Positions 6,274-50,460 of a DNA stretch of 64,000 bases are shown one piece after another. Position 1 is the stretch's first letter; every line of letters begins with the position of its first letter. Origin of the DNA: Labia minor (Eukaryota; Arthropoda; Insecta; Dermaptera; Spongiphoridae). The position numbers were made by a program, and so were the translations under genes. Below the pieces are notes generated by a model. The model was not told the DNA's origin, did no database searches, and saw nothing but the letters and a program-made list of their open reading frames with translations. Where the stretch lies: contig OY720349.1 of assembly GCA_963082975.1 (NCBI GenBank), forward strand, positions 70,695,739 through 70,759,738, in the 5' to 3' direction.

Positions 6274-6369
6274 GAATAAAGTGCTACTTCCGGTTAACTG
6301 ATATTTTAAATGTAAAAAAAAGAGATATGGATATAATATAAATATTTTTAATTTTATTTTATTTATAAC

Positions 6370-7585: not shown

Positions 7586-7598
7586 ATAAGGGCTGGCT

Positions 7599-9048: not shown

Positions 9049-12000
9049 TTAAATATAAAAAATGAACATTTTAAAAATTAATAATAAATACGTTAATTTT
9101 ACATCAAAAAAATATTAAAAAAATTATTTATTGATATTTTTAATCAATAATTATTTTTTTTATCCAAAATACAAGGGTCTTCATCCGCCAACCTTTCATA
9201 ATTTTTACGGTAAAAATTAAAAATGAATTTTTTTGATATTAATAAAAAATAAGTTCATTTTACATCATAAAAATATTAAAAAAATATATTATTGATATTT
9301 TTGAAGAATAATTATTTTTTAAACCAAAAATCACAGGGTCATCGTCCGCCAACCATTCATAATTTTTAAGGTAAAAATTAAAAAATGAAATTTTTAAAAA
9401 TTAATAATAAATACGTTCATTTTAAATAATAAAAATATTAAAAAAATATATTATTTATATTTTTAATGAATAATTATTTTTTTTAGCCAAAATAGTAGGA
9501 TCATCGTCCGCCAACCTTTCATAATTTTGAAGGTAAATATAAAAAATGAAATTTTTAAAAATTAATAATAAATATGTTCATTTTACATCATAAAAATATT
9601 AAAAATATTATTTATTGATATTTATGATCAATAGTTATTTTTTTAGCCAAAATCTTATGCTCATCGTCCCCCAACCTTTCATAATTTTGAAAGCAAAAAT
9701 AAAAATTAAATTTTTAAAAATTAATAATAAATATGTTCATTTTACATCATAAAAATATTAAAAAAATATATTATTGATATTTTTAAAGAATAGTTATTTT
9801 TTATAACCAAAATCCTCGTCCGCCAACCTTTCATAATTTTGATGGTAAAAATAAAAAATGAATTTTTTTAAAATTAATATTAAATACGTTCATTTTACAT
9901 TATAAAAATATTAAAAAAATTATTTATTGATATTTTTATTGAATAATTATTTTTTTTAACCAAAATCGTAGGGTCATCGTCCGCCAAACTTTCATACTTT
10001 TGACGTTAAATATAAAAAATGAACATTTTAAAAATTAATAATAAATACGTTCATTTTACATCATGAAAATATTAAACATATATTATTGATATTTTTGATG
10101 AATAGTTATTTTTTATTCCCAAAATCGAGGGTTATCGTCCGCCAACCTTTCATAATTTTGAAGGTAATAATAAAAAATGAATTTTATTAAAATTAATAAT
10201 AAATCAGTTCATTTTACATCATAAAAATATTAAGAAATATTTTATTGTTATTTTTGATGAATAGTTATTTTTTATAGCCCAAAATCGTAGGGTCATCGTC
10301 CGCCAACCTTTATAATTTTGAAAGTAAATATAAAAATGAAATTTTTAAAAATTAATAATAAATACGTTCATTTTAAATCATAAAAATATTAAAAAAATAT
10401 ATTATTTATATTTTTGATGAATAGTTATTTTTTATTCCCAAAATCGAGGGTCATCGTCCGCCAACCTTTCATAATTTTGAAGGTAAAATTAAAAAATGAA
10501 TTTTTTTAAAATTAATAATAAATATGTTCATTTTACATCCTAAAAATATTAAAAATATTATTTATTGATATTTTTGATCAATAGTTTTTTTTTCTTCCAA
10601 AATCTTAGGGTCATCGTCCGCCAAACTTTCATAATTTTATATGGTAAAAATATAAATTGAAATTTTTTAAAATTAATATTAAATAGGTTCATTTTTCATC
10701 ATAAAAATATTAAAAAAAATTATTTATTGATATTTTTAATGAATAATTATTTTTTTTAACCAAAATCGTAGGGTCATCTTCCGCCAACCCTTGATACTTT
10801 TGACGTTATAAATAAAAAAATGAACATTTTAAAAATTAATAATAAATACGTTAATTTTACATCAAAAAAATATTAAAAAAATTATTTATTGATATTTTTA
10901 ATCAATAATTATTTTTTTTATCCAAAATACAAGGGTCTTCATCCGCCAACCTTTCATAATTTTTACGGTAAAAATTAAAAATGAATTTTTTTGATATTAA
11001 TAAAAAATAAGTTCATTTTACATCATAAAAATATTAAAAAAATATATTATTGATATTTTTGAAGAATAATTATTTTTTAAACCAAAAATCACAGGGTCAT
11101 CGTCCGCCAACCATTCATAATTTTTAAGGTAAAAATTAAAAAATGAAATTTTTAAAAATTAATAATAAATACGTTCATTTTAAATAATAAAAATATTAAA
11201 AAAATATATTATTTATATTTTTAATGAATAATTATTTTTTTTAGCCAAAATAGTAGGATCATCGTCCGCCAACCTTTCATAATTTTGAAGGTAAATATAA
11301 AAAATGAAATTTTTAAAAATTAATAATAAATATGTTCATTTTACATCATAAAAATATTAAAAATATTATTTATTGATATTTATGATCAATAGTTATTTTT
11401 TTAGCCAAAATCTTATGCTCATCGTCCCCCAACCTTTCATAATTTTGAAAGCAAAAATAAAAATTAAATTTTTAAAAATTAATAATAAATATGTTCATTT
11501 TACATCATAAAAATATTAAAAAAATATATTATTGATATTTTTAAAGAATAGTTATTTTTTATAACCAAAATCCTCGTCCGCCAACCTTTCATAATTTTGA
11601 TGGTAAAAATAAAAAATGAATTTTTTTAAAATTAATATTAAATACGTTCATTTTACATTATAAAAATATTAAAAAAATTATTTATTGATATTTTTATTGA
11701 ATAATTATTTTTTTTAACCAAAATCGTAGGGTCATCGTCCGCCAAACTTTCATACTTTTGACGTTAAATATAAAAAATGAACATTTTAAAAATTAATAAT
11801 AAATACGTTCATTTTACATCATGAAAATATTAAACATATATTATTGATATTTTTGATGAATAGTTATTTTTTATTCCCAAAATCGAGGGTTATCGTCCGC
11901 CAACCTTTCATAATTTTGAAGGTAATAATAAAAAATGAATTTTATTAAAATTAATAATAAATCAGTTCATTTTACATCATAAAAATATTAAGAAATATTT

Positions 12001-14800
12001 TATTGTTATTTTTGATGAATAGTTATTTTTTATAGCCCAAAATCGTAGGGTCATCGTCCGCCAACCTTTATAATTTTGAAAGTAAATATAAAAATGAAAT
12101 TTTTAAAAATTAATAATAAATACGTTCATTTTAAATCATAAAAATATTAAAAAAATATATTATTTATATTTTTGATGAATAGTTATTTTTTATTCCCAAA
12201 ATCGAGGGTCATCGTCCGCCAACCTTTCATAATTTTGAAGGTAAAATTAAAAAATGAATTTTTTTAAAATTAATAATAAATATGTTCATTTTACATCCTA
12301 AAAATATTAAAAATATTATTTATTGATATTTTTGATCAATAGTTTTTTTTTCTTCCAAAATCTTAGGGTCATCGTCCGCCAAACTTTCATAATTTTATAT
12401 GGTAAAAATATAAATTGAAATTTTTTAAAATTAATATTAAATAGGTTCATTTTTCATCATAAAAATATTAAAAAAAATTATTTATTGATATTTTTAATGA
12501 ATAATTATTTTTTTTAACCAAAATCGTAGGGTCATCTTCCGCCAACCCTTCATACTTTTGACGTTATAAATAAAAAAATGAACATTTTAAAAATTAATAA
12601 TAAATACGTTAATTTTACATCAAAAAAATATTAAAAAAATTATTTATTGATATTTTTAATCAATAATTATTTTTTTTATCCAAAATACAAGGGTCTTCAT
12701 CCGCCAACCTTTCATAATTTTTACGGTAAAAATTAAAAATGAATTTTTTTGATATTAATAAAAAATAAGTTCATTTTACATCATAAAAATATTAAAAAAA
12801 TATATTATTGATATTTTTGAAGAATAATTATTTTTTAAACCAAAAATCACAGGGTCATCGTCCGCCAACCATTCATAATTTTTAAGGTAAAAATTAAAAA
12901 ATGAAATTTTTAAAAATTAATAATAAATACGTTCATTTTAAATAATAAAAATATTAAAAAAATATATTATTTATATTTTTAATGAATAATTATTTTTTTT
13001 AGCCAAAATAGTAGGATCATCGTCCGCCAACCTTTCATAATTTTGAAGGTAAATATAAAAAATGAAATTTTTAAAAATTAATAATAAATATGTTCATTTT
13101 ACATCATAAAAATATTAAAAATATTATTTATTGATATTTATGATCAATAGTTATTTTTTTAGCCAAAATCTTATGCTCATCGTCCCCCAACCTTTCATAA
13201 TTTTGAAAGCAAAAATAAAAATTAAATTTTTAAAAATTAATAATAAATATGTTCATTTTACATCATAAAAATATTAAAAAAATATATTATTGATATTTTT
13301 AAAGAATAGTTATTTTTTATAACCAAAATCCTCGTCCGCCAACCTTTCATAATTTTGATGGTAAAAATAAAAAATGAATTTTTTTAAAATTAATATTAAA
13401 TACGTTCATTTTACATTATAAAAATATTAAAAAAATTATTTATTGATATTTTTATTGAATAATTATTTTTTTTAACCAAAATCGTAGGGTCATCGTCCGC
13501 CAAACTTTCATACTTTTGACGTTAAATATAAAAAATGAACATTTTAAAAATTAATAATAAATACGTTCATTTTACATCATGAAAATATTAAACATATATT
13601 ATTGATATTTTTGATGAATAGTTATTTTTTATTCCCAAAATCGAGGGTTATCGTCCGCCAACCTTTCATAATTTTGAAGGTAATAATAAAAAATGAATTT
13701 TATTAAAATTAATAATAAATCAGTTCATTTTACATCATAAAAATATTAAGAAATATTTTATTGTTATTTTTGATGAATAGTTATTTTTTATAGCCCAAAA
13801 TCGTAGGGTCATCGTCCGCCAACCTTTATAATTTTGAAAGTAAATATAAAAATGAAATTTTTAAAAAATAATAATAATAAATACGTTCATTTTAAATCAT
13901 AAAAATATTAAAAAAATATATTATTTATATTTTTGATGAATAGTTATTTTTTATTCCCAAAATCGAGGGTCATCGTCCGCCAACCTTTCATAATTTTGAA
14001 GGTTAAATTAAAAAATGAATTTTTTTAAAATTAATAATAAATATGTTCATTTTACATCCTAAAAATATTAAAAATATTATTTATTGATATTTTTGATCAA
14101 TAGTTATTTTTTTATCCAAAATCTTAGGGTCATCGTCCGCCAAACTTTCATATTTTTATATGGTAAAAATATAAATTGAAATTTTTTAAAATTAATATTA
14201 AATACGTTCATTTTTCATCATAAAAATATTAAAAAAAATTATTTATTGATATTTTTAATGAATAATTATTTTTTTTAACCAAAATCGTAGGGTCATCTTC
14301 CGCCAACCCTTCATACTTTTGACGTTATAAATAAAAAATGAACATTTTAAAAATTAATAATAAATACGTTAATTTTACATCAAAAAAATATTAAAAAAAT
14401 TATTTATTGATATTTTTAATCAATAATTATTTTTTTTATCCAAAATACAAGGGTCTTCATCCGCCAACCTTTCATAATTTTTACGGTAAAAATAAAAAAT
14501 GAATTTTTTTGATATTAATAAAAAATAAGTTCATTTTACATCATAAAAATATTAAAAAAATATATTATTGATATTTTTGAAGAATAATTATTTTTTAAAC
14601 CAAAAATCACAGGGTTATCGTCCGCCAACCATTCATAATTTTTAAGGTAAAAATTAAAAAATGAAATTTTTAAAAATTAATAATAAATACGTTCATTTTA
14701 AATAATAAAAATATTAAAAAAATATATTATTTATATTTTTAATGAATAATTATTTTTTTTAGCCAAAATAGTAGGATCATCGTCCGCCAACCTTTCATAA
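9049..14800. repeat. Higher-order repeat A, 1758-bp unit of 11 monomers, about 3.3 copies
   Basis: A distinctive monomer containing ATACAAGGGTCTTCAT recurs with its landmark at 9181, 10939, 12697 and 14457, intervals of 1758, 1758 and 1760 bp. Between landmarks the order of monomer variants is the same, including the shortened junction ACCAAAATCCTCGTCCGCC. Copies differ by only scattered single bases or 1-2 bp indels, so this block was amplified as an 11-monomer unit. Eleven times 160 bp matches the period. Confidence 0.92.
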
Positions 14801-17701
14801 ACCTGACGGTAAATATGAAAAATTAAATTTTTAAAAATTAAAAATAAATATGTTCATTTTACATCATAAAAATATTAAAAATATTATTTATTGATATTTA
14901 TGATCAATAGTTATTTTTTTAGCCAAAATCTTATGCTCATCGTCCCCCAACCTTTCATAATTTTGAGGGTAAAAATATAAAATGAAATTTTTTAAAATTA
15001 ATATTAAATACGTTCATTTTACATCATAAAAATATTAAAAAAATTATTTATTGATATTTTTAATGAATAATTATTTTTTTGAACCAAAATCGGAGGGTCA
15101 TCATCCGCCAACCTTTCATACTTTTGATGTTAAAAATAAAAAATGAACATTTTAAAAATTAATAATAAATACGTTCATTTTACATCATGAAAATATTAAA
15201 CAAATATATTATTGATACTTTTGATGAATAGTTATTTTTTATTCCCAAAATCGAGGGTCATCGTCCGCCAACCTTTCATAATTTTGAAGGTAAAAATAAA
15301 AAATCAATTTTATTAAAATTATTAATAAATCAGTTCATTTTACATCATAAAAATAATTAAAAATATTTTAGGGTTATTTTTGATGAATAGTTATTTTTTA
15401 TAGCCCAAAATCGGAGGGTCATCGTCCGCCAATCTTTCATAATTATGACGGGAAAAATAAAAAATGAACATTTTAAAAATTAATAATAAATACGTTAATT
15501 TTACATCATAAAAATATTAATAAAATATATTATTGATATTTTTGATGAATAATTATTTTTTATACCCAAAATCAAAGGGTCATCGTCCTCTAACCTTTCA
15601 TAAACCTGACGGTAAATATGAAAAATTAAATTTTTAAAAATTAAAAATAAATATGTTCATTTTACATCCTAAAAATATTAAAAATATTATTTATTGATAT
15701 TTTTGATCAATAGTTATTTTTTTTAGCCAAAATCTTAGGGTCATCGTACGCCAAACTTTCATAATTTTGAGGGTAAAAATATAAAATGAAATTTTTTAAA
15801 ATTAATATTAAATACGTTCATTTTACATCATAAAAATATTAAAAAAATTATTTATTGATATTTTTAATGAATAATTATTTTTTTGAACCAAAATCGGAGG
15901 GTCATCATCCGCCAACCTTTCATACTTTTGATGTTAAAAATAAAAAATGAACATTTTAAAAATTAATAATAAATACGTTCATTTTACATCATGAAAATAT
16001 TAAACAAATATATTATTGATACTTTTGATGAATAGTTATTTTTTATTCCCAAAATCGAGGGTCATCGTCCGCCAACCTTTCATAATTTTGAAGGTAAAAA
16101 TAAAAAATCAATTTTATTAAAATTATTAATAAATCAGTTCATTTTACATCATAAAAATAATTAAAAATATTTTAGGGTTATTTTTGATGAATAGTTATTT
16201 TTTATAGCCCAAAATCGGAGGGTCATCGTCCGCCAATCTTTCATAATTATGACGGGAAAAATAAAAAATGAACATTTTAAAAATTAATAATAAATACGTT
16301 AATTTTACATCATGAAAATATTAAAAAAATTATTTATTGATATTTTTAATGAATAATTATTTTTTTTAACCAAAATCGTAGGGTCATCTTCCGCCAACCC
16401 TTCATACTTTTGACGTTAAAAATACAAAATGAACATTTTAAAAATTGATAATAAATACGTTCATTTTACATCATGAAAATATTAAACAAATATTTTATTG
16501 TTATTTTTGATGAATAGTTATTTTTTATAGCCCAAAATCGGAGGGTCATCGTCCGCCAACCTTTCATAATTTTTAAGGTAAATATTAGAAAATGAAATTT
16601 TTAAAAATTAATAATAAATACGTTCATTTTAAATAATAAAAATATTAAAAAAATATATTATTTATATTTTTAATGAATAATTATTTTTTTTAGCCAAAAT
16701 AGTAGGGTCATCGTCCGCCAACCTTTCATAATTTTTAAGGTAAAAATTAGAAAATGAAATTTTTAAAAATTAATAATAAATACGTTCATTTTAAATCATA
16801 AAAATATTAATAAAATATATTATTTATATTTTTAATGAATAATTATTTTTTTTAGCCAACATAGTAGGGTCATCGTCCGCCAACCTTTATAATTTTGAAG
16901 GTAAATATAAAAAATGAAATTTTTAAAAATTAATAATAAATATGTACATTTTACATCATAAAAATATTAAAAATATTATTTATTGATATTTATGATCAAT
17001 AGTTATTTTTTTAGCCAAAATCTTATGCTCATCGTCCGCCAACCTTTCATAATTTTGAAAGCAAAAATAAAAATTAAATTTTTAAAAATTAATAATAAAT
17101 ATGTTCATTTTACATCATAAAAATATTAAAAAAATATATTATTGATATTTTTAAAGAATAGTTATTTTTTATAACCAAAATCCTCGTCCGCCAACCTTTC
17201 ATAATTTTGACGGTAAAAATAAAAAATGAATTTTTTTAAAATTAATATTAAATACGTTCATTTTACATTATAAAAATATTAAAGAAATTATTTATTGATA
17301 TTTTTATTGAATAATTATTTTTTTTAACCAAAATCGTAGGGTCATCGTCCGCCAAACTTTCATACTTTTGACGTTAAATATAAAAAATGAACATTTTAAA
17401 AATTAATAATAAATACGTTCATTTTACATCATGAAAATATTAAACATATATTATTGATATTTTTGATGAATAGTTATTTTTTATTCCCAAAATCGAGGGT
17501 TATCGTCCGCCAACCTTTCATAATTTTGAAGGTAATAATAAAAAATGAATTTTATTAAAATTAATAATAAATCAGTTCATTTTACATCATAAAAATATTA
17601 AGAAATATTTTATTGTTATTTTTGATGAATAGTTATTTTTTATAGCCCAAAATCGGAGTGTCATCGTCCGCCAACCTTTATAATTTTGAAAGTAAATATA
17701 A
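14801..17701. repeat. 160-bp satellite, transition into the second higher-order repeat
   Basis: Monomers here include a variant ending AAATATTTTAGGGTTATTTT, at about 15370 and again about 16170, and a variant with GTCCTCTAACC. From about 15581 the monomer order matches 20236 onwards, displaced by 4655 bp rather than 4816 bp. The 161-bp difference is one monomer: the AAATTAGAAAATGAAA-type monomer occurs once fewer here (about 16740) than at 21397 and 21557. Confidence 0.85.
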
Positions 17702-18347
17702 TTAGCTGGAGTGTCTCCACTCGACTATCTCGCAATTTGAATTGGATTAAATAACATAATATATTATATCTAAATTAAATTTAATTAATTATAAATTATA
17801 AATAATAAATAATAAATATTAAACCAGCGCATGTTTGGCTTTTTGTTGATGGCACCACGTCACGTGTTGGCGCGTGAGATTTGCAGTGTTAAAAAATTAA
17901 TTCTGGTAATTTCAGCGAATCAATCAAGCTGAAATTCTATATATAGCTGTTTTATACAATGTTTAATCATGTGAAAAATTATCAAACATATATCTTTATT
18001 TTTACGGTCACTTTAGAGGAAAAAAAATCAAAACGTTGTAGGTAATGACCCTCTTCCGGTTGAGCTACATTTCTCAAAAGTTGATAGAAAACTATGAATT
18101 TTGAATAATGTCCATGTACCAAATTTCATCATTCTAGCTCAAACCGTTTTTGCGTAATCTTGCCTACATACATACACACACACATACACACATACACACA
18201 CACATACACACACACATACACACACACACACAGACATTTTTCTCAACCTTAGTGAAAATGATTCAGGAACCTTCAAAACGTATAAAAACATCAAAATCTC
18301 AACATCGAAAATTTTCGTGATCGCAATACTATCTCTGGCGAGATAGT
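17702..18347. mobile_element. Helitron-like element, first of a head-to-tail dimer (dimer 1)
   Basis: Same family as 4031-4644. The left hairpin is TGGAG (17707-17711), TGT, CTCCA (17715-17719). The subterminal inverted repeat is ACTATCTCGC (17724-17733) against GCGAGATAGT (18338-18347). The right terminal hairpin has arms at 18328-18335 and 18340-18347 around TGGC. An imperfect CA/TACA tract lies at about 18167-18234. The left flank is satellite ending GTAAATATAA; on the right only AAAA separates it from the next copy. Read on the minus strand, the left end is a Helitron-type hairpin followed by CTAA. Confidence 0.75.
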
Positions 18348-18351
18348 AAAA

Positions 18352-18988
18352 TTAGCTGGAGTGTCTCCACTCGACTATCTCGCAATTTGAATTGGATTAA
18401 TTAACATAATATATCATATTTAAATTAAATTTAATTAATTATAAATTATAAATAATAAATAATAATATTAAACCAGCGCATGTTTGGCTTTTTGTTGATG
18501 GCACCACGTCACGTGTTGGCGCGTGAGATTTGCAGTGTTAAAAAATTAATTTTGGTAATTTCAGCGAATCAATCAAGCTGAAATTCTATATATAGCAGTT
18601 TTATACAATTATTAATCATGTGAAAAATTTTCAAACATATATCTTTATTTTTACGGTCACTTTAGAGGAAAAAAAATCAAAACGTTGTAGGTAATGACCC
18701 TCTTCCGGTTGAGCTACATTTCTCAAAAGTTGATAGAAAACTATGAATTTTGAATAATGTCCATGTACCAAATTTCATCATTCTAGCTCAAACCGTTTTT
18801 GCGTAATCTTGCCTACATACATACACACACACATACACACATACACACATACACACACACATACACACACACAGACATTTTTCTCAACCTTAGTGAAAAT
18901 GATTCAGGAACCTTCAAAACGTATAAAAACATCAAAATCTCAACATCGAAAATTTTCGTGATCGCAATACTATCTCTGGCGAGATAGT
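18352..18988. mobile_element. Helitron-like element, second of a head-to-tail dimer (dimer 1)
   Basis: Same family and orientation as the neighbouring copy but about 10 bp shorter, with small differences (AATAATATTAAACC rather than AATAAATATTAAACC, and a different CA/TACA tract). It ends at the ACTATCTC/GAGATAGT hairpin and returns to satellite as AAAAATGAAATTT, the expected continuation of the interrupted monomer. The 62-codon frame beginning at 18799 is translated microsatellite plus terminus and is not a gene. Confidence 0.75.
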
Positions 18989-21900
18989 AAAAATGAAATT
19001 TTTAAAAATTAATAATAAATACGTTCATTTTAAATCATAAAAATATTAAAAAAATATATTATTTATATTTTTGATGAATAGTTATTTTTTATTCCCAAAA
19101 TCGAGGGTCATCGTCCGCCAACCTTTCATAATTTTGAAGGTAAAATTAAAAAATGAATTTTTTTAAAATTAATAATAAATATGTTCATTTTACATCCTAA
19201 AAATATTAAAAATATTATTTATTGATATTTTTGATCAATAGTTATTTTTTTATCCAAAATCTTAGGGTCATCGTTCGCCAAACTTTCATATTTTTATATG
19301 GTAAAAATATAAATTGAAATTTTTTAAAATTAATATTAAATACGTTCATTTTTCATCATAAAAATATTAAAAAAAATTATTTATTGATATTTTTAATGAA
19401 TAATTATTTTTTTTAACCAAAATCGTAGGGTCATCTTCCGCCAACCCTTCATACTTTTGACGTTATAAATAAAAAATGAACATTTTAAAAATTAATAATA
19501 AATACGTTAATTTTACATCAAAAAAATATTAAAAAAATTATTTATTGATATTTTTAATCAATAATTATTTTTTTTATCCAAAATACAAGGGTCTTCATCC
19601 GCCAACCTTTCATAATTTTTACGGTAAAAATAAAAAATGAATTTTTTTGATATTAATAAAAAATAAGTTCATTTTACATCATAAAAATATTAAAAAAATA
19701 TATTATTGATATTTTTGAACAATAATTATTTTTTAAACCAAAAATCACAGGGTTATCGTCCGCCAACCATTCATAATTTTTAAGGTAAAAATTAAAAAAT
19801 GAAATTTTTAAAAATTAATAATAAATACGTTCATTTTAAATAATAAAAATATTAAAAAAATATATTATTTATATTTTTAATGAATAATTATTTTTTTTAG
19901 CCAAAATAGTAGGATCATCGTCCGCCAACCTTTCATAATTTTGAAGGTAAATATAAAAAATGAAATTTTTAAAAATTAATAATAAATATGTTCATTTTAC
20001 ATCATAAAAATATTAAAAATATTATTTATTGATATTTATGATCAATAGTTATTTTTTTAGCCAAAATCTTATGCTCATCGTCCCCCAACCTTTCATAATT
20101 TTGAAAGCAAAAATAAAAATTAAATTTTTAAAAATTAATAATAAATATGTTCATTTTACATCATAAAAATATTAATAAAATATATTATTGATATTTTTGA
20201 TGAATAATTATTTTTTATACCCAAAATCAAAGGGTCATCGTCCTCTAACCTTTCATAAACCTGACGGTAAATATGAAAAATTAAATTTTTAAAAATTAAT
20301 ATTAAATATGTTCATTTTACATCCTAAAAATATTAAAAATATTATTTATTGATATTTTTGATCAATAGTTATTTTTTTTAGCCAAAATCTTAGGGTCATC
20401 GTACGCCAAACTTTCATAATTTTGAGGGTAAAAATATAAAATGAAATTTTTTAAAATTAATATTATATACGTTCATTTTACATCATAAAAATATTAAAAA
20501 AATTATTTATTGATATTTTTAATGAATAATTATTTTTTTGAAGCAAAATCGGAGGGTCATCATCCGCCAACCTTTCATACTTTTGACGTTAAAAATAAAA
20601 AATGAACATTTTAAAAATTAATAATAAATACGTTCATTTTACATCATGAAAATATTAAACAAATATATTATTGATACTTTTGATGAATAGTTATTTTTTA
20701 TTCCCAAAATCGAGGGTCATCGTCCGCCAACCTTTCATAATTTTGAAGGTAAAAATAAAAAATCAATTTTATTAAAATTATTAATAAATCAGTTCATTTT
20801 ACATCATAAAAATAATTAAAAATATTTTAGGGTTATTTTTGATGAATAGTTATTTTTTATAGCCCAAAATCGGAGGGTCATCGTCCGCCAATCTTTCATA
20901 ATTATGACGGGAAAAATAAAAAATGAACATTTTAAAAATTAATAATAAATACGTTAATTTTACATTATGAAAATATTAAAAAAATTATTTATTGATATTT
21001 TTAATGAATAATTATTTTTTTTAACCAAAATCGTAGGGTCATCTTCCGCCAACCCTTCATAATTTTGACGTTAAAAATACAAAATGAACATTTTAAAAAT
21101 TGATAATAAATACGTTCATTTTACATCATGAAAATATTAAACAAATATTTTATTGTTATTTTTGATGAATAGTTATTTTTTATAGCCCAAAATCGGAGGG
21201 TCATCGTCCGCCAACCTTTCATAATTTTTAAGGTAAATATTAGAAAATGAAATTTTTAAAAATTAATAATAAATACGTTCATTTTAAATAATAAAAATAT
21301 TAAAAAAATATATTATTTATATTTTTAATGAATAATTATTTTTTTTAGCCAAAATAGTAGGGTCATCGTCCGCCAACCTTTCATAATTTTTAAGGTAAAA
21401 ATTAGAAAATGAAATTTTTAAAAATTAATAATAAATACGTTCATTTTAAATCATAAAAATATTAATAAAATATATTATTTATATTTTTAATGAATAATTA
21501 TTTTTTTTAGCCAAAATAGTAGGGTCATCGTCCGCCAACCTTTCATAATTTTTAAGGTAAAAATTAGAAAATGAAATTTTTAAAAATTAATAATAAATAC
21601 GTTCATTTTAAATCATAAAAATATTAATAAAATATATTATTTATATTTTTAATGAATAATTATTTTTTTTGCCAACATAGTAGGGTCATCGTCCGCCAAC
21701 CTTTATAATTTTGAAGGTAAATATAAAAAATGAAATTTTTAAAAATTAATAATAAATATGTACATTTTACATCATAAAAATATTAAAAATATTATTTATT
21801 GATATTTATGATCAATAGTTATTTTTTTAGCCAAAATCTTATGCTCATCGTCCGCCAACCTTTCATAATTTTGAAAGCAAAAATAAAAATTAAATTTTTA

Positions 21901-22296
21901 AAAATTAATAATAAATATGTTCATTTTACATCATAAAAATATTAAAAAAATATATTATTGATATTTTTAAAGAATAGTTATTTTTTATAACCAAAATCCT
22001 CGTCCGCCAACCTTTCATAATTTTGACGGTAAAAATAAAAAATGAATTTTTTTAAAATTAATATTAAATACGTTCATTTTACATTATAAAAATATTAAAG
22101 AAATTATTTATTGATATTTTTATTGAATAATTATTTTTTTTAACCAAAATCGTAGGGTCATCGTCCGCCAAACTTTCATACTTTTGACGTTAAATATAAA
22201 AAATGAACATTTTAAAAATTAATAATAAATACGTTCATTTTACATCATGAAAATATTAAACATATATTATTGATATTTTTGATGAATAGTTATTTT
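18989..22296. repeat. 160-bp satellite inside higher-order repeat B, left of the RTE
   Basis: About 21 monomers, collinear with 27680-30970. The final 9 bases (AGTTATTTT, 22288-22296) are the target copy on the left of the RTE insertion. Confidence 0.93.
22288..22296. repeat. RTE target-site duplication, left copy
   Basis: AGTTATTTT, matched by 26163-26171. The empty-site copy near 30980 contains it once. Confidence 0.9.
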
Positions 22297-23177
22297 GTGT
22301 GAGTGAACTCGGCGCTGGTCGGACGTGTGTCGCATCGCTCCTGATTCCCATCCGTTTTTCCTTGGGGTATTTGTTAAAACTGGTGGTAAGTTTTACATCA
22401 TTTTACTGATCTTGAAGTGCTCTTTACAATGTGGCACATCTGGGATCAATTGCTACCAAGGTGGGCGCGGTGGATCCTTAATTGGTAATTCTCGGTACTG
22501 AGACTGATGGGTATATGAACCCATTAATAAGTATAATTAGTGATAATGATAATGATCATTGTTCTAATTTTATTTTTGTCATCTAATTCCGAGTTCAGTT
22601 CAGGGTTCAACGTTCTACCAAGCAAGTACTCCACTCCTTCTCCCCCCTCTACCACTCCTGTTTTAAATCCTTTATTTATTTATTCCTATTAATAACTTAT
22701 CCCGATTAACATTTACTAATATTATAAAATAAATAAATAACAATTTCCTTTTTCCTATCAGTGGCTTGTGGCGGGCGGTTTGTATGCGCGCTGGGTGATC
22801 TTACATATTCCCTTGAGGGGCTCATAGCTTATGAGCATATGGATTGGCATCCATGAGGTCCCAAGCCATATCTAGTATTGCTTCCACTTACTTGTACTAG
22901 ATATCTTACTTTTATCTTTCCTATCTGGCCTCTCTTGGCCAACTCTTGTTTCTTCCGACCCCGACGCTATTAGGTGTCCGAGGGCTAGGGGTCTTTCATT
23001 TCTTACTATTTACTTTCTCTTCTCTTAAGCCAGTTATGGCGAAACCCAGTAGCGTCTGTTCTCCAGGTTAGGGGCGGCTACGAACAGCGTCTGTACTCCA
23101 GGTTAGGGGCGGCTGAGAATCAAACCGAAGAAGGCAACGGGAAACCACTTCGGTATACCATCCCCAGGAAATTCACT
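22297..23177 (+). other. RTE leader / 5' UTR
   Basis: It begins GTGTGAGTGAACTCGGCGCT. No long ORF is present. A 35-bp direct repeat starts at 23051 and 23086 (AGCGTCTGTTCTCCAGGTTA, then GGGGCGGCT, one mismatch in the matched 29 bp). Just upstream of the ORF is GAAGAAGGCAACGGGAAACC. Non-LTR elements carry internal promoters in this region, so the direct repeat is a candidate promoter or translation-control element, but that is inference. Confidence 0.7.
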
Positions 23178-26156: not shown

Positions 26157-26163
26157 AGAAGAA
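26157..26163 (+). terminator. RTE 3' end, AGAAGAA tail directly after the stop codon
   Basis: The stop TGA (26154-26156) is followed by AGAAGAA and then the target-site duplication. With the stop this reads as TGAAGAAGAA, a short GAA-type trinucleotide tail in place of a poly(A) tail, as known for RTE elements. No AATAAA signal is present. The last A may belong to the target duplication. Confidence 0.75.
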
Positions 26164-26171
26164 GTTATTTT
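26163..26171. repeat. RTE target-site duplication, right copy
   Basis: AGTTATTTT, matching 22288-22296. The satellite monomer resumes directly with TTATTCCCAAAATCGAGGG. Confidence 0.9.
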
Positions 26172-27038: not shown

Positions 27039-27042
27039 AAAA

Positions 27043-31854: not shown

Positions 31855-31858
31855 AAAA

Positions 31859-38400: not shown

Positions 38401-39992
38401 CGTCCGCCAACCTTTCATAATTTTTAAGGTAAAAATTAGAAAATGAAATTTTTAAAAATTAATAATAAATACGTTCATTTTAAATCATACAAATATTAAT
38501 AAAATATATTATTTATATTTTTAATGAATAATTATTTTTTTTACCAACATAGTAGGGTCACGTCCGCCAACCTTTATAATTTTGAAGGTAAATATAACAA
38601 ATGAAATTTTTAAAAATTAATAATAAATATGTACATTTTACATCATAAAAATATTAAAAATATTATTTATTGATATTTATGATCAATAGTTATTTTTTTA
38701 GCCAAAATCTTATGCTCATCGTCCGCCAACCTTTCATAATTTTGAAAGCAAAAATAAAAATTAAATTTTTAAAAATTAATAATAAATATGTACATTTTAC
38801 ATCATAAAAATATTAAAAATATTATTTATTGATATTTTTAAAGAATAGTTATTTTTTATAACCAAAATCCTCGTCCGCCAACCTTTCATAATTTTGACGG
38901 TAAAAATAAAAAATGAATTTTTTTAAAATTAATATTAAATACGTTCATTTTACATTATAAAAATATTAAAGAAATTATTTATTGATATTTTTATTGAATA
39001 ATTATTTTTTTTAACCAAAATCGTAGGGTCATCGTCCGCCAAACTTTCATACTTTTGACGTTAAATATAAAAAATGAACATTTTAAAAATTAATAATAAA
39101 TACGTTCATTTTACATCATGAAAATATTAAACATATATTATTGATATTTTTGATGAATAGTTATTTTTTATTCCCAAAATCGAGGGTTATCGTCCGCCAA
39201 CCTTTCATAATTTTGAAGGTAATAATAAAAAATGAATTTTATTAAAATTAATAATAAATCAGTTCATTTTACATCATAAAAATATTAAGAAATATTTTAT
39301 TGTTATTTTTGATGAATAGTTATTTTTTATAGCCCAAAATCGGAGTGTCATCGTCCGCCAACCTTTATAATTTTGAAAGTAAATATAAAAATGAAATTTT
39401 TAAAAATTAATAATAAATACGTTCATTTTAAATCATAAAAATATTAAAAAAATATATTATTTATATTTTTGATGAATAGTTATTTTTTATTCCCAAAATC
39501 GAGGGTCATCGTCCGCCAACCTTTCATAATTTTGAAGGTAAAATTAAAAAATGAATTTTTTTAAAATTAATAATAAATATGTTCATTTTACATCCTAAAA
39601 ATATTAAAAATATTATTTATTGATATTTTTGATCAATAGTTATTTTTTTATCCAAAATCTTAGGGTCATCGTCCGCCAAACTTTCATATTTTTATATGGT
39701 AAAAATATAAATTGAAATTTTTTAAAATTAATATTAAATACGTTCATTTTTCATCATAAAAATATTAAAAAAAATTATTTATTGATATTTTTAATGAATA
39801 ATTATTTTTTTTAACCAAAATCGTAGGGTCATCTTCCGCCAACCCTTCATACTTTTGACGTTATAAATAAAAAATGAACATTTTAAAAATTAATAATAAA
39901 TACGTTAATTTTACATCAAAAAAATATTAAAAAAATTATTTATTGATATTTTTAATCAATAATTATTTTTTTTATCCAAAATACAAGGGTCT
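32496..39992. repeat. 160-bp satellite, rearranged transition between higher-order repeats B and C
   Basis: Collinearity with repeat B stops near 33285, where the monomer after AACCATTCATAATTTT switches to a GAAGGTAAATATG type. The ATACAAGGGTCTTCAT landmark occurs at 33102, 34227 and 35985: a 1125-bp interval (about seven monomers, shortened), then a standard 1758-bp unit. The next landmark is at 39993, 4008 bp on, which is 3526 plus 482. The extra 482 bp is a local three-monomer duplication (AAATATTTTAGGG at about 37219 and 37701). Confidence 0.88.
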
Positions 39993-42900
39993 TCATCCGC
40001 CAACCTTTCATAATTTTTACGGTAAAAATAAAAAATGAATTTTTTTGATATTAATAAAAAATAAGTTCATTTTACATCATAAAAATATTAAAAAAATATA
40101 TTATTGATATTTTTGAAGAATAATTATTTTTTAAACCAAAAATCACAGGGTTATCGTCCGCCAACCATTCATAATTTTTAAGGTAAAAATTAAAAAATGA
40201 AATTTTTAAAAATTAATAATAAATACGTTCATTTTAAATAATAAAAATATTAAAAAAATATATTATTTATATTTTTAATGAATAATTATTTTTTTTAGCC
40301 AAAATAGTAGGATCATCGTCCGCCAACCTTTCATAATTTTGAAGGTAAATATAAAAAATGAAATTTTTAAAAATTAATATTAAATATGTTCATTTTACAT
40401 CATAAAAATATTAAAAATATTATTTATTGATATTTATGATCAATAGTTATTTTTTTAGCCAAAATCTTATGCTCATCGTCCCCCAACCTTTCATAATTTT
40501 GAAAGCAAAAATAAAAATTAAATTTTTAAAAATTAATAATAAATATGTTCATTTTACATCATAAAAATATTAATAAAATATATTATTGATATTTTTGATG
40601 AATAATTATTTTTTATACCCAAAATCAAAGGGTCATCGTCCTCTAACCTTTCATAAACCTGACGGTAAATATGAAAAATTAAATTTTTAAAAATTAATAA
40701 TAAATATGTTCATTTTACATCCTAAAAATATTAAAAATATTATTTATTGATATTTTTGATCAATAGTTATTTTTTTTAGCCAAAATCTTAGGGTCATCGT
40801 ACGCCAAACTTTCATAATTTTGAGGGTAAAAATATAAAATGAAATTTTTTAAAATTAATATTAAATACGTTCATTTTACATCATAAAAATATTAAAAAAA
40901 TTATTTATTGATATTTTTAATGAATAATTATTTTTTTGAAGCAAAATCGGAGGGTCATCATCCGCCAACCTTTCATACTTTTGACGTTAAAAATAAAAAA
41001 TGAACATTTTAAAAATTAATAATAAATACGTTCATTTTACATCATGAAAATATTAAACAAATATATTATTGATACTTTTGATGAATAGTTATTTTTTATT
41101 CCCAAAATCGAGGGTCATCGTCCGCCAACCTTTCATAATTTTGAAGGTAAAAATAAAAAATCAATTTTATTAAAATTATTAATAAATCAGTTCATTTTAC
41201 ATCATAAAAATAATTAAAAATATTTTAGGGTTATTTTTGATGAATAGTTATTTTTTATAGCCCAAAATCGGAGGGTCATCGTCCGCCAATCTTTCATAAT
41301 TATGACGGGAAAAATAAAAAATGAACATTTTAAAAATTAATAATAAATACGTTAATTTTACATCATGAAAATATTAAAAAAATTATTTATTGATATTTTT
41401 AATGAATAATTATTTTTTTTAACCAAAATCGTAGGGTCATCTTCCGCCAACCCTTCATACTTTTGACGTTAAAAATACAAAATGAACATTTTAAAAATTG
41501 ATAATAAATACGTTCATTTTACATCATGAAAATATTAAACAAATATTTTATTGTTATTTTTGATGAATAGTTATTTTTTATAGCCCAAAATCGGAGGGTC
41601 ATCGTCCGCCAACCTTTCATAATTTTTAAGGTAAATATTAGAAAATGAAATTTTTAAAAATTAATAATAAATACGTTCATTTTAAATAATAAAAATATTA
41701 AAAAAATATATTATTTATATTTTTAATGAATAATTATTTTTTTTAGCCAAAATAGTAGGGTCATCGTCCGCCAACCTTTCATAATTTTTAAGGTAAAAAT
41801 TAGAAAATGAAATTTTTAAAATTTAATAATAAATACGTTCATTTTAAATCATAAAAATATTAATAAAATATATTATTTATATTTTTAATGAATAATTATT
41901 TTTTTTAGCCAAAATAGTAGGGTCATCGTCCGCCAACCTTTCATAATTTTTAAGGTAAAAATTAGAAAATGAAATTTTTAAAAATTAATAATAAATACGT
42001 TCATTTTAAATCATAAAAATATTAATAAAATATATTATTTATATTTTTAATGAATAATTATTTTTTTTACCAACATAGTAGGGTCATCGTCCGCCAACCT
42101 TTATAATTTTGAAGGTAAATATAACAAATGAAATTTTTAAAAATTAATAATAAATATGTACATTTTACATCATAAAAATATTAAAAATATTATTTATTGA
42201 TATTTTTAAAGAATAGTTATTTTTTATAACCAAAATCCTCGTCCGCCAACCTTTCATAATTTTGACGGTAAAAATAAAAAATGAATTTTTTTAAAATTAA
42301 TATTAAATACGTTCATTTTACATTATAAAAATATTAAAGAAATTATTTATTGATATTTTTATTGAATAATTATTTTTTTTAACCAAAATCGTAGGGTCAT
42401 CGTCCGCCAAACTTTCATACTTTTGACGTTAAATATAAAAAATGAACATTTTAAAAATTAATAATAAATACGTTCATTTTACATCATGAAAATATTAAAC
42501 ATATATTATTGATATTTTTGATGAATAGTTATTTTTTATTCCCAAAATCGAGGGTTATCGTCCGCCAACCTTTCATAATTTTGAAGGTAATAATAAAAAA
42601 TGAATTTTATTAAAATTAATAATAAATCAGTTCATTTTACATCATAAAAATATTAAGAAATATTTTATTGTTATTTTTGATGAATAGTTATTTTTTATAG
42701 CCCAAAATCGGAGTGTCATCGTCCGCCAACCTTTATAATTTTGAAAGTAAATATAAAAATGAAATTTTTAAAAATTAATAATAAATACGTTCATTTTAAA
42801 TCATAAAAATATTAAAAAAATATATTATTTATATTTTTGATGAATAGTTATTTTTTATTCCCAAAATCGAGGGTCATCGTCCGCCAACCTTTCATAATTT

Positions 42901-45900
42901 TGAAGGTAAAATTAAAAAATGAATTTTTTTAAAATTAATAATAAATATGTTCATTTTACATCCTAAAAATATTAAAAATATTATTTATTGATATTTTTGA
43001 TCAATAGTTATTTTTTTATCCAAAATCTTAGGGTCATCGTCCGCCAAACTTTCATATTTTTATATGGTAAAAATATAAATTGAAATTTTTTAAAATTAAT
43101 ATTAAATACGTTCATTTTTCATCATAAAAATATTAAAAAAAATTATTTATTGATATTTTTAATGAATAATTATTTTTTTTAACCAAAATCGTAGGGTCAT
43201 CTTCCGCCAACCCTTCATACTTTTGACGTTATAAATAAAAAATGAACATTTTAAAAATTAATAATAAATACGTTAATTTTACATCAAAAAAATATTAAAA
43301 AAATTATTTATTGATATTTTTAATCAATAATTATTTTTTTTATCCAAAATACAAGGGTCTTCATCCGCCAACCTTTCATAATTTTTACGGTAAAAATAAA
43401 AAATGAATTTTTTTGATATTAATAAAAAATAAGTTCATTTTACATCATAAAAATATTAAAAAAATATATTATTGATATTTTTGAAGAATAATTATTTTTT
43501 AAACCAAAAATCACAGGGTTATCGTCCGCCAACCATTCATAATTTTTAAGGTAAAAATTAAAAAATGAAATTTTTAAAAATTAATAATAAATACGTTCAT
43601 TTTAAATAATAAAAATATTAAAAAAATATATTATTTATATTTTTAATGAATAATTATTTTTTTTAGCCAAAATAGTAGGATCATCGTCCGCCAACCTTTC
43701 ATAATTTTGAAGGTAAATATAAAAAATGAAATTTTTAAAAATTAATATTAAATATGTTCATTTTACATCATAAAAATATTAAAAATATTATTTATTGATA
43801 TTTATGATCAATAGTTATTTTTTTAGCCAAAATCTTATGCTCATCGTCCCCCAACCTTTCATAATTTTGAAAGCAAAAATAAAAATTAAATTTTTAAAAA
43901 TTAATAATAAATATGTTCATTTTACATCATAAAAATATTAATAAAATATATTATTGATATTTTTGATGAATAATTATTTTTTATACCCAAAATCAAAGGG
44001 TCATCGTCCTCTAACCTTTCATAAACCTGACGGTAAATATGAAAAATTAAATTTTTAAAAATTAATAATAAATATGTTCATTTTACATCCTAAAAATATT
44101 AAAAATATTATTTATTGATATTTTTGATCAATAGTTATTTTTTTTAGCCAAAATCTTAGGGTCATCGTACGCCAAACTTTCATAATTTTGAGGGTAAAAA
44201 TATAAAATGAAATTTTTTAAAATTAATATTAAATACGTTCATTTTACATCATAAAAATATTAAAAAAATTATTTATTGATATTTTTAATGAATACTTATT
44301 TTTTTGAAGCAAAATCGGAGGGTCATCATCCGCCAACCTTTCATACTTTTGACGTTAAAAATAAAAAATGAACATTTTAAAAATTAATAATAAATACGTT
44401 CATTTTACATCATGAAAATATTAAACAAATATATTATTGATACTTTTGATGAATAGTTATTTTTTATTCCCAAAATCGAGGGTCATCGTCCGCCAACCTT
44501 TCATAATTTTGAAGGTAAAAATAAAAAATCAATTTTATTAAAATTATTAATAAATCAGTTCATTTTACATCATAAAAATAATTAAAAATATTTTAGGGTT
44601 ATTTTTGATGAATAGTTATTTTTTATAGCCCAAAATCGGAGGGTCATCGTCCGCCAATCTTTCATAATTATGACGGGAAAAATAAAAAATGAACATTTTA
44701 AAAATTAATAATAAATACGTTAATTTTACATCATGAAAATATTAAAAAAATTATTTATTGATATTTTTAATGAATAATTATTTTTTTTAACCAAAATCGT
44801 AGGGTCATCTTCCGCCAACCCTTCATACTTTTGACGTTAAAAATACAAAATGAACATTTTAAAAATTGATAATAAATACGTTCATTTTACATCATGAAAA
44901 TATTAAACAAATATTTTATTGTTATTTTTGATGAATAGTTATTTTTTATAGCCCAAAATCGGAGGGTCATCGTCCGCCAACCTTTCATAATTTTTAAGGT
45001 AAATATTAGAAAATGAAATTTTTAAAAATTAATAATAAATACGTTCATTTTAAATAATAAAAATATTAAAAAAATATATTATTTATATTTTTAATGAATA
45101 ATTATTTTTTTTAGCCAAAATAGTAGGGTCATCGTCCGCCAACCTTTCATAATTTTTAAGGTAAAAATTAGAAAATGAAATTTTTAAAATTTAATAATAA
45201 ATACGTTCATTTTAAATCATAAAAATATTAATAAAATATATTATTTATATTTTTAATGAATAATTATTTTTTTTAGCCAAAATAGTAGGGTCATCGTCCG
45301 CCAACCTTTCATAATTTTTAAGGTAAAAATTAGAAAATGAAATTTTTAAAAATTAATAATAAATACGTTCATTTTAAATCATAAAAATATTAATAAAATA
45401 TATTATTTATATTTTTAATGAATAATTATTTTTTTTACCAACATAGTAGGGTCATCGTCCGCCAACCTTTATAATTTTGAAGGTAAATATAACAAATGAA
45501 ATTTTTAAAAATTAATAATAAATATGTACATTTTACATCATAAAAATATTAAAAATATTATTTATTGATATTTTTAAAGAATAGTTATTTTTTATAACCA
45601 AAATCCTCGTCCGCCAACCTTTCATAATTTTGACGGTAAAAATAAAAAATGAATTTTTTTAAAATTAATATTAAATACGTTCATTTTACATTATAAAAAT
45701 ATTAAAGAAATTATTTATTGATATTTTTATTGAATAATTATTTTTTTTAACCAAAATCGTAGGGTCATCGTCCGCCAAACTTTCATACTTTTGACGTTAA
45801 ATATAAAAAATGAACATTTTAAAAATTAATAATAAATACGTTCATTTTACATCATGAAAATATTAAACATATATTATTGATATTTTTGATGAATAGTTAT

Positions 45901-48900
45901 TTTTTATTCCCAAAATCGAGGGTTATCGTCCGCCAACCTTTCATAATTTTGAAGGTAATAATAAAAAATGAATTTTATTAAAATTAATAATAAATCAGTT
46001 CATTTTACATCATAAAAATATTAAGAAATATTTTATTGTTATTTTTGATGAATAGTTATTTTTTATAGCCCAAAATCGGAGTGTCATCGTCCGCCAACCT
46101 TTATAATTTTGAAAGTAAATATAAAAATGAAATTTTTAAAAATTAATAATAAATACGTTCATTTTAAATCATAAAAATATTAAAAAAATATATTATTTAT
46201 ATTTTTGATGAATAGTTATTTTTTATTCCCAAAATCGAGGGTCATCGTCCGCCAACCTTTCATAATTTTGAAGGTAAAATTAAAAAATGAATTTTTTTAA
46301 AATTAATAATAAATATGTTCATTTTACATCCTAAAAATATTAAAAATATTATTTATTGATATTTTTGATCAATAGTTATTTTTTTATCCAAAATCTTAGG
46401 GTCATCGTCCGCCAAACTTTCATATCTTTATATGGTAAAAATATAAATTGAAATTTTTTAAAATTAATATTAAATACGTTCATTTTTCATCATAAAAATA
46501 TTAAAAAAAATTATTTATTGATATTTTTAATGAATAATTATTTTTTTTAACCAAAATCGTAGGGTCATCTTCCGCCAACCCTTCATACTTTTGACGTTAT
46601 AAATAAAAAATGAACATTTTAAAAATTAATAATAAATACGTTAATTTTACATCAAAAAAATATTAAAAAAATTATTTATTGATATTTTTAATCAATAATT
46701 ATTTTTTTTATCCAAAATACAAGGGTCTTCATCCGCCAACCTTTCATAATTTTTACGGTAAAAATAAAAAATGAATTTTTTTGATATTAATAAAAAATAA
46801 GTTCATTTTACATCATAAAAATATTAAAAAAATATATTATTGATATTTTTGAAGAATAATTATTTTTTAAACCAAAAATCACAGGGTTATCGTCCGCCAA
46901 CCATTCATAATTTTTAAGGTAAAAATTAAAAAATGAAATTTTTAAAAATTAATAATAAATACGTTCATTTTAAATAATAAAAATATTAAAAAAATATATT
47001 ATTTATATTTTTAATGAATAATTATTTTTTTTAGCCAAAATAGTAGGATCATCGTCCGCCAACCTTTCATAATTTTGAAGGTAAATATAAAAAATGAAAT
47101 TTTTAAAAATTAATATTAAATATGTTCATTTTACATCATAAAAATATTAAAAATATTATTTATTGATATTTATGATCAATAGTTATTTTTTTAGCCAAAA
47201 TCTTATGCTCATCGTCCCCCAACCTTTCATAATTTTGAAAGCAAAAATAAAAATTAAATTTTTAAAAATTAATAATAAATATGTTCATTTTACATCATAA
47301 AAATATTAATAAAATATATTATTGATATTTTTGATGAATAATTATTTTTTATACCCAAAATCAAAGGGTCATCGTCCTCTAACCTTTCATAAACCTGACG
47401 GTAAATATGAAAAATTAAATTTTTAAAAATTAATAATAAATATGTTCATTTTACATCCTAAAAATATTAAAAATATTATTTATTGATATTTTTGATCAAT
47501 AGTTATTTTTTTTAGCCAAAATCTTAGGGTCATCGTACGCCAAACTTTCATAATTTTGAGGGTAAAAATATAAAATGAAATTTTTTAAAATTAATATTAA
47601 ATACGTTCATTTTACATCATAAAAATATTAAAAAAATTATTTATTGATATTTTTAATGAATAATTATTTTTTTGAAGCAAAATCGGAGGGTCATCATCCG
47701 CCAACCTTTCATACTTTTGACGTTAAAAATAAAAAATGAACATTTTAAAAATTAATAATAAATACGTTCATTTTACATCATGAAAATATTAAACAAATAT
47801 ATTATTGATACTTTTGATGAATAGTTATTTTTTATTCCCAAAATCGAGGGTCATCGTCCGCCAACCTTTCATAATTTTGAAGGTAAAAATAAAAAATCAA
47901 TTTTATTAAAATTATTAATAAATCAGTTCATTTTACATCATAAAAATAATTAAAAATATTTTAGGGTTATTTTTGATGAATAGTTATTTTTTATAGCCCA
48001 AAATCGGAGGGTCATCGTCCGCCAATCTTTCATAATTATGACGGGAAAAATAAAAAATGAACATTTTAAAAATTAATAATAAATACGTTAATTTTACATC
48101 ATGAAAATATTAAAAAAATTATTTATTGATATTTTTAATGAATAATTATTTTTTTTAACCAAAATCGTAGGGTCATCTTCCGCCAACCCTTCATACTTTT
48201 GACGTTAAAAATACAAAATGAACATTTTAAAAATTGATAATAAATACGTTCATTTTACATCATGAAAATATTAAACAAATATTTTATTGTTATTTTTGAT
48301 GAATAGTTATTTTTTATAGCCCAAAATCGGAGGGTCATCGTCCGCCAACCTTTCATAATTTTTAAGGTAAATATTAGAAAATGAAATTTTTAAAAATTAA
48401 TAATAAATACGTTCATTTTAAATAATAAAAATATTAAAAAAATATATTATTTATATTTTTAATGAATAATTATTTTTTTTAGCCAAAATAGTAGGGTCAT
48501 CGTCCGCCAACCTTTCATAATTTTTAAGGTAAAAATTAGAAAATGAAATTTTTAAAATTTAATAATAAATACGTTCATTTTAAATCATAAAAATATTAAT
48601 AAAATATATTATTTATATTTTTAATGAATAATTATTTTTTTTAGCCAAAATAGTAGGGTCATCGTCCGCCAACCTTTCATAATTTTTAAGGTAAAAATTA
48701 GAAAATGAAATTTTTAAAAATTAATAATAAATACGTTCATTTTAAATCATAAAAATATTAATAAAATATATTATTTATATTTTTAATGAATAATTATTTT
48801 TTTTACCAACATAGTAGGGTCATCGTCCGCCAACCTTTATAATTTTGAAGGTAAATATAACAAATGAAATTTTTAAAAATTAATAATAAATATGTACATT

Positions 48901-50460
48901 TTACATCATAAAAATATTAAAAATATTATTTATTGATATTTTTAAAGAATAGTTATTTTTTATAACCAAAATCCTCGTCCGCCAACCTTTCATAATTTTG
49001 ACGGTAAAAATAAAAAATGAATTTTTTTAAAATTAATATTAAATACGTTCATTTTACATTATAAAAATATTAAAGAAATTATTTATTGATATTTTTATTG
49101 AATAATTATTTTTTTTAACCAAAATCGTAGGGTCATCGTCCGCCAAACTTTCATACTTTTGACGTTAAATATAAAAAATGAACATTTTAAAAATTAATAA
49201 TAAATACGTTCATTTTACATCATCAAAATATTAAACATATATTATTGATATTTTTGATGAATAGTTATTTTTTATTCCCAAAATCGAGGGTTATCGTCCG
49301 CCAACCTTTCATAATTTTGAAGGTAATAATAAAAAATGAATTTTATTAAAATTAATAATAAATCAGTTCATTTTACATCATAAAAATATTAAGAAATATT
49401 TTATTGTTATTTTTGATGAATAGTTATTTTTTATAGCCCAAAATCGGAGTGTCATCGTCCGCCAACCTTTATAATTTTGAAAGTAAATATAAAAATGAAA
49501 TTTTTAAAAATTAATAATAAATACGTTCATTTTAAATCATAAAAATATTAAAAAAATATATTATTTATATTTTTGATGAATAGTTATTTTTTATTCCCAA
49601 AATCGAGGGTCATCGTCCGCCAACCTTTCATAATTTTGAAGGTAAAATTAAAAAATGAATTTTTTTAAAATTAATAATAAATATGTTCATTTTACATCCT
49701 AAAAATATTAAAAATATTATTTATTGATATTTTTGATCAATAGTTATTTTTTTATCCAAAATCTTAGGGTCATCGTCCGCCAAACTTTCATTTTTTTATA
49801 TGGTAAAAATATAAATTGAAATTTTTTAAAATTAATATTAAATACGTTCATTTTTCATCATAAAAATATTAAAAAAAATTATTTATTGATATTTTTAATG
49901 AATAATTATTTTTTTTAACCAAAATCGTAGGGTCATCTTCCGCCAACCCTTCATACTTTTGACGTTATAAATAAAAAATGAACATTTTAAAAATTAATAA
50001 TAAATACGTTAATTTTACATCAAAAAAATATTAAAAAAATTATTTATTGATATTTTTAATCAATAATTATTTTTTTTATCCAAAATACAAGGGTCTTCAT
50101 CCGCCAACCTTTCATAATTTTTACGGTAAAAATAAAAAATGAATTTTTTTGATATTAATAAAAAATAAGTTCATTTTACATCATAAAAATATTAAAAAAA
50201 TATATTATTGATATTTTTGAAGAATAATTATTTTTTAAACCAAAAATCACAGGGTTATCGTCCGCCAACCATTCATAATTTTTAAGGTAAAAATTAAAAA
50301 ATGAAATTTTTAAAAATTAATAATAAATACGTTCATTTTAAATAATAAAAATATTAAAAAAATATATTATTTATATTTTTAATGAATAATTATTTTTTTT
50401 AGCCAAAATAGTAGGATCATCGTCCGCCAACCTTTCATAATTTTGAAGGTAAATATAAAA
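39993..50460. repeat. Higher-order repeat C, 3368-bp unit of about 21 monomers, three copies
   Basis: Landmarks at 39993, 43361, 46729 and 50097 are exactly 3368 bp apart; a second landmark (AAATATTTTAGGG) at 41227, 44595 and 47963 gives the same period. Copies differ at rare single bases (for example ATGAATACTT at about 44289 where the others read ATGAATAATT). The unit is the 22-monomer unit of repeat B without the Helitron-like dimer and without one monomer of 158 bp, the AGCAAAAATAAAAATT type seen at about 38747 but skipped near 42190. The monomer that carries the dimer in repeat B is intact here (GAAAGTAAATATAAAAATG near 39375, 42744 and 46112). Confidence 0.93.

Follow-up and report, generated by a model that had tools for sequence, protein, structure and literature searches.

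Layout of the window

The window analysed here is a stretch of 64,000 nucleotides from Labia minor that holds 277 satellite monomers of about 160 bp, arranged head to tail, and ends in telomere-like repeats. The GC content of the window is 25.05%; the chromosomes of L. minor are reported to have 26.0-26.5% GC (PMC11937785). The features are as follows (higher-order units are named by their number of monomers, and monomer types by letters).

1 to 5927, + strand: left flank of 33 monomers that lack higher-order structure, with one HINE-like copy inside (4031-4644)
7833 to 54727, + strand: main satellite array, ~160-bp monomers head to tail, 244 found by core match
9176 to 14451, + strand: three 11-mer units of 1758, 1758 and 1760 bp (monomer coordinates)
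14452 to 19589, + strand: 24-mer with a HINE-like dimer, derivable from the 22-mer by a W/S deletion, a five-monomer T/W duplication and the presence of one C
17702 to 18990, - strand: HINE-like dimer in monomer L (orientation from the HINE ends, by eye)
19590 to 28280, + strand: 22-mer unit with a LINE and a HINE-like dimer, 3527 bp without inserts
22297 to 26162, + strand: LINE within monomer J; target duplication of 9 bp (AGTTATTTT), open frame of 1055 codons from stop to stop
28281 to 33096, + strand: 22-mer unit with a HINE-like dimer, 3527 bp without the dimer
33097 to 34221, + strand: 7-mer, equal to the 22-mer minus three in-phase deletions (F/R, S/J and K/L)
34222 to 35979, + strand: 11-mer with a W/H chimera at 34705, the clearest 22-mer deletion product
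35980 to 39987, + strand: 25-mer, equal to the 22-mer plus a three-monomer duplication, with a U/P chimera at 37427
39988 to 50091, + strand: three 21-mer units (39988, 43356 and 46724), each with the D/H fusion monomer X
50092 to 54727, + strand: right array end, rearranged and degenerating (from the monomer string and the ring path described below)
60545 to 62258, + strand: telomere-variant zone with a 32-bp unit, 52 exact copies at a constant spacing of 32
62259 to 64000, + strand: (TTCGG)n, 8 repeats and then an uninterrupted run of 336 that reaches the end of the window

Monomers were located by a sliding match to a 25-base core on the + strand, which replaced an earlier fuzzy-regex cut that found only 57 places. 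Of the 279 places identified by the sliding match, 277 lie below 55 kb; the other two, weak core matches at 58.6-58.8 kb, were excluded before clustering. The - strand of the window contains no match to the 8-mer or the 16-mer (exact) or to the 25-mer core (fuzzy). Exact core searches of viral and prokaryote genome collections returned no matches, as expected for an animal satellite. Searches of one open-access library turned up no report of the array, and none of the papers that it returned on earwigs and satellite DNA concerns an earwig satellite, judging by titles and the beginnings of abstracts.

The 277 monomers were clustered from pairwise edit distances by average linkage with a 2% cut. 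The left flank is almost devoid of recurring types at this cut, with 31 of the 33 monomers being singletons. The 244 monomers from 7878 on comprise 29 singletons and 215 members of 23 recurring clusters; as two of these are V, an L monomer with an element inserted in it, and the chimera X, 21 plain types remain. Non-satellite DNA of about 1.9 kb interrupts the array at 5928-7832 and ends with (CAGA)n near 7510-7555.

Two stretches of the monomer, positions 1-25 and 78-105, vary least, both in the types that make up the reference unit (below) and in the left flank. Variation at G/C sites is 0.077 and 0.080 in the 25-bp core versus 0.253 and 0.256 elsewhere, that is, about threefold lower. The least variable part of the monomer is positions 78 to 105, not the GC-rich 25-bp core. 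Both stretches could possibly be contact sites for proteins.

Higher-order periodicity

A landmark 16-mer, ATACAAGGGTCTTCAT, has 13 matches, all on the + strand and none on the - strand, which start at 9169, 10927, 12685, 14445, 19583, 28274, 33090, 34215, 35973, 39981, 43349, 46717 and 50085; base composition alone would predict about 6e-6 occurrences in the array. An earlier, sequence-only reading of this DNA had the number of occurrences and their spacings right but placed each of the 13 coordinates 12 too high. The raw intervals between successive landmarks are 1758, 1758, 1760, 5138, 8691, 4816, 1125, 1758, 4008, 3368, 3368 and 3368 bp. Without inserts, these become 1758, 1758, 1760, 3849, 3527, 3527, 1125, 1758, 4008, 3368, 3368 and 3368 bp, or 11, 11, 11, 24, 22, 22, 7, 11, 25, 21, 21 and 21 monomers. 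Thus, the intervals of 11, 21 and 22 monomers and of 22 monomers plus a dimer that had been read from the landmark are borne out once inserts are removed, whereas the 24-, 25- and 7-mers were missing from that list, as was the LINE behind the 8691-bp interval, which consists of a 22-mer, a HINE-like dimer and a LINE confined to this one unit.

The same periods emerge from monomer clustering. The fraction of monomer pairs less than 2% apart is 0.166 at lag 11, 0.323 at lag 21 and 0.282 at lag 22, far above the values from 1000 shuffles of the monomers, which average about 0.042 and reach at most 0.095, 0.106 and 0.101, respectively. The multi-level higher-order repeat (HOR) that had been claimed is genuine.

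Twenty-two monomers of 21 types, with C present twice, form the ring that serves as the reference unit. The 22-mers at 19590 and 28281 read EFGWRSPQTUBCCDHIJKLMNO, and the 11-mers at 9176, 10934 and 12692, as well as the one at 34222, read EFGHIJKLMNO. Copies within each kind are close to identical: the first and second 11-mers differ by one substitution in 1758, and the third differs from the second by seven substitutions and two indels; the two 22-mers differ by two substitutions in 3527 with inserts removed; and the 21-mers differ from each other by 2-4 substitutions in 3368. Divergence among the other units is 0.18-1.24%. The array is composed of three young local blocks flanked by older, disordered edges.

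Junction monomers

Diverged monomers follow each other in a fixed order that is repeated at high identity, and the unit variants come with in-phase hybrid monomers, the misses being 9015, 14775 and 51540, which fit clean predicted chimeras poorly. Direct alignment shows that monomer X of the 21-mers (42082, 45450 and 48818) is D joined in phase to H. G and D have identical 3' halves. The best single parent was compared with the best two-parent mosaic for 27 of the 29 singletons to the right of 7.8 kb, leaving aside the LINE-split monomer 22156 and the last monomer. Parents predicted from the neighbours were tested on a hand-picked set of 10 of these 27 singletons together with X. The predicted pair was the sole best in 6 of the 11 junction monomers, tied for best in four and not the best in one (9015), in tests that are not fully independent, some neighbours being themselves chimeric and assigned by hand (notably 51701). 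In the controls, none of 29 left-flank monomers came within two mismatches of any parent pair (the lowest value being 4), and leaving out one type at a time brought 3 of the 21 types to at most two mismatches (B, D and G, each of which has a close twin).

The whole region was then described as a path on the 22-position ring with a jump cost of 4 (costs of 3 and 6 gave results of the same sense), using a ring consensus built from five units of the array that was later fitted to it. With in-phase jumps, the path takes 28 jumps and leaves 201 mismatches, compared with 24 jumps and 350 mismatches when jumps are allowed at monomer borders only. Twenty-one of the 28 jumps fall in monomers with at most two mismatches and represent 15 distinct junctions, namely, 12 deletions, two duplications (T/W and U/P) and B/C1, to which no direction is assigned; the other seven are spread over six monomers that fit poorly (51540 and five at the right edge). 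The events on the path account exactly for the unit lengths of 7, 11, 21, 24 and 25. Most junctions fit in-phase two-parent monomers, as would be expected under unequal homologous exchange.

Passenger elements

The LINE at 22297-26162 combines endonuclease and reverse-transcriptase domains recognized by Pfam in a single ORF and has a short target duplication, as RTE-type elements do, and by its look it is a putative member of this type.

The three units that carry the other element are longer than expected by 1289 bp, which corresponds to a dimer of a ~640-bp element. In addition to the copy at 17702, dimers are found at 26393-27681 and 31209-32497, also in monomer L. The three dimers with their flanks occupy the same site and show 1-3 differences in 1548 positions, and thus stem from a single insertion that was copied along with the host unit. 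The proposal that one lineage gained a Helitron-like dimer is upheld, the element being similar to a HINE. Inspection of the - strand by eye shows a palindromic 5' repeat with an inverted 3' partner, a 3' hairpin and a microsatellite in the element; no coding frame was seen in it. It sits in a TT site with T-run borders, as judged from the empty site and, by eye, from the ends. Insertion in T-runs, palindromic subterminal repeats, the 3' hairpin and the microsatellite are shared with HINE and DINE-1 elements, which are non-autonomous Helentrons (PMC4067079). Unlike those described there, the copies in the dimers are passengers of a satellite unit, and the 3' subterminal repeat lies closer to the end, at 22 bp, compared with 38-60 bp in mite HINEs; the hairpin, at 7 bp from the end, is also closer than in these (PMC4067079).

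The two halves of the dimer share 98.3% identity with each other and about 96% with the lone copy at 4031-4644. The lone copy and the dimer at 17702 lie at nearly equal offsets in their monomers, 44 and 43, and the host monomers are only about 89% identical, compared with about 96% for the elements. These might possibly be two insertions at one preferred site.

Order of events

The array is probably best explained as a telomere-proximal, AT-rich earwig satellite whose HORs would have arisen as misaligned monomers took part in ordinary unequal homologous exchange. Under this scenario, an old block of about 11 monomers would have doubled, with the halves subsequently diverging, and the resulting 21- or 22-mer would have become the unit. 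Exchange between W and H, in halves that were still similar, would then have removed 11 monomers, in at least one event and probably two, to yield the present 11-mers, and exchange between D and H would have produced the 21-mer by deletion of a single monomer. The HINE-like dimer would have inserted into one L monomer, to be carried along with copying of the unit, and recent, separate amplification of the 11-mer, the HINE-bearing 22-mer and the 21-mer would have generated the three blocks. The LINE insertion would come last, once the HINE-bearing unit had multiplied. A role in subtelomeric heterochromatin seems plausible for such an array, and a sequence-specific function need not be assumed.

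The ancient doubling is supported by the alignment of the two halves of the 22-mer as a gapped chain, in which F, G, W, S, P, Q and so on are matched with C2, D, H, I, J, K and so on. With settings chosen by the analyst after weak fixed-offset tests, the score of this chain is 0.598, the shuffle maximum is 0.417 and none of 200 shuffles is as good; partner monomers are 2.5-15% apart. Tests at a single offset are weak (p 0.015 for offset 10 and p 0.059 for offset 11, with 11 offsets tried). The nominal 22 may itself be a derived 21, given that the age order of BC and BCC is undecided.

Thus, the idea of an 11-mer that doubled agrees with the colinear halves but does not extend to the 11-mers now present, which are best read as later deletion products rather than as the ancestral form. 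These are 98.9-99.3% identical to the 22-mers over ten shared plain monomers and resemble one half only. In the chimera at 34705 of the 34222 11-mer, four sites carry W letters, and after them comes the 3' end of H with its 8-base gap; one earlier site has the H letter, which is also the letter of the general consensus. This W/H scar firmly points to secondary excision of the 34222 11-mer from a 22-mer. The left block probably originated in the same way, with 22-mer fragments on both sides of it along the ring path; its origin by deletion is less certain because the H monomer of these 11-mers has just one W-type letter. The loss of one monomer postulated for another lineage is seen in the 21-mer, as the D/H deletion.

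The opposite order, with an ancestral 11-mer array, a 22-mer that formed afterwards through doubling or the fusion of two diverged 11-mer arrays, and the present 11-mers as survivors, is unlikely. Colinear halves would result from such a history too, the identical 3' halves of G and D would be left whichever way the join was made, the likeness of the 11-mers to only one half would follow as well from fusion with a distinct, diverged 11-mer array, and the single W letter in the left H monomers fits as well. It is at odds, however, with the passage from W to H within the 34222 11-mer, which is the scar of a 22-mer, and with the fragments of 22-mer that border the left block on both sides. Derivation of the 11-mers by exchange within 22-mers is accordingly the order retained here, with the confidence differing between the two sets of 11-mers as given above.

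Subtelomeric setting and the centromere question

The right end of the window conforms to what is described for dermapteran telomeres, namely, a long uninterrupted (TTCGG)n tract with variant repeats just inside. In Labia minor, TTCGG is the reported telomere motif, bordered on its inner side by TTCAGTT and TTCGGTT variants; three other earwigs are also reported to have extended TTCGG arrays (PMC11829193). The window matches the L. minor chromosome ends of that account in the motif and both variants and differs from them in the ~160-bp satellite array, of which that account appears to make no mention (PMC11829193). The array ends about 6-8 kb from the telomere-like repeats and appears to be subtelomeric, near a chromosome end. 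The sequence-only reading recognized the readable multi-level HOR in the window but overlooked this setting and the LINE. The 32-bp telomere-variant unit is a second higher-order repeat in the window.

It is improbable that the array bears a kinetochore or is otherwise under selection, with HORs that stem from amplification of the centromeric type. The young ordered core with older, disordered edges resembles human centromeres (PMC9549924, section 2.9), and variation at G/C positions is lower inside the 25-bp core than outside it, but telomere repeats lie 6-8 kb away. Dermaptera, moreover, are reported to be holocentric (PMC4359364, PMC3401891, PMC11471171), although contrary reports, of constrictions in Forficula, are cited as well (PMC4359364), and transcriptomes of two earwigs other than Labia yielded no CenH3 (PMC4359364). 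Two candidate signs of a centromere were considered and discarded: the CENP-B box has no exact match on either strand in positions 1-54700, and the GC-rich 25-bp core varies more than positions 78 to 105, the least variable stretch. Many centromeric satellites lack a CENP-B box.

That part of the higher-order structure is an artefact of assembly, with a wrong copy number or duplicated blocks, is improbable as well, being compatible with the 1-4 differences between the closest copies and with the read length of about 10 kb (14.74 Gb from 1.46 million reads; PMC11937785), which equals three 21-mers together, but spoken against by copies with substitutions of their own, by a unit with its own LINE and by chimeric monomers that are in phase.

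The HOR satellite described here is genuine and unusually readable, and is of a kind already known, HORs with hybrid monomers being documented in humans and HORs in Drosophila. As in human alpha satellite, there are ordered multi-monomer units, variants of unit length, length-keeping hybrid monomers, a young core and disordered edges (PMC8336445, PMC9549924). Unlike alpha satellite, the monomer is ~160 bp long and appears unrelated when compared by eye, and the array spans tens of kilobases rather than megabases, lies near a telomere rather than at a centromere and has no CENP-B box that could be found. The HORs of the Drosophila ananassae subgroup are likewise recently expanded insect satellites that are sometimes interrupted by transposons, but are pericentromeric and reach 2 Mb, whereas the earwig array is short and telomere-proximal (PMC11917152).

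Most work on HOR evolution concerns megabase centromeres, and amplification is tied to the kinetochore in one current model; a review of human centromeres sets neutral homogenisation against a kinetochore-associated amplification machine (PMC9549924, section 2.9). The short earwig array preserves 15 distinct, well-fitting exchange junctions and near-identical blocks beside telomere repeats, with two kinds of passenger transposon, HINE-like and LINE, that serve as time stamps, and is a natural test of whether HORs require a CENP-A centromere. A telomere-proximal satellite in a holocentric order without detected CenH3 may conceivably have evolved the HOR anatomy of human centromeres (ordered core, disordered edges, hybrid monomers, deletion variants and recently amplified blocks), with HORs being intrinsic to unequal exchange; this broader reading is tentative. 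If it is true, HORs would form and be homogenised with no requirement for a regional centromere or for CENP-A, against what the strong forms of the kinetochore-selection model hold (PMC9549924). The anatomy and location of the array favour the neutral view, as a lead rather than a proof, because a holocentric kinetochore could still touch the array.

Remnants of other elements are present as well. Another LINE-like reverse transcriptase, in fragments with broken frames, lies on the - strand at 56298-58384. For a second BEL/Pao-like piece, the Pfam search gave no identification, and the surrounding frame of 123 amino acids had no match either. The first such piece, a pol fragment at 60396-60546 (DUF5641, Pfam E-value 2.4e-10), directly abuts the telomere-variant repeats, and the join looks as if an end broken inside the element had been capped by a new telomere.
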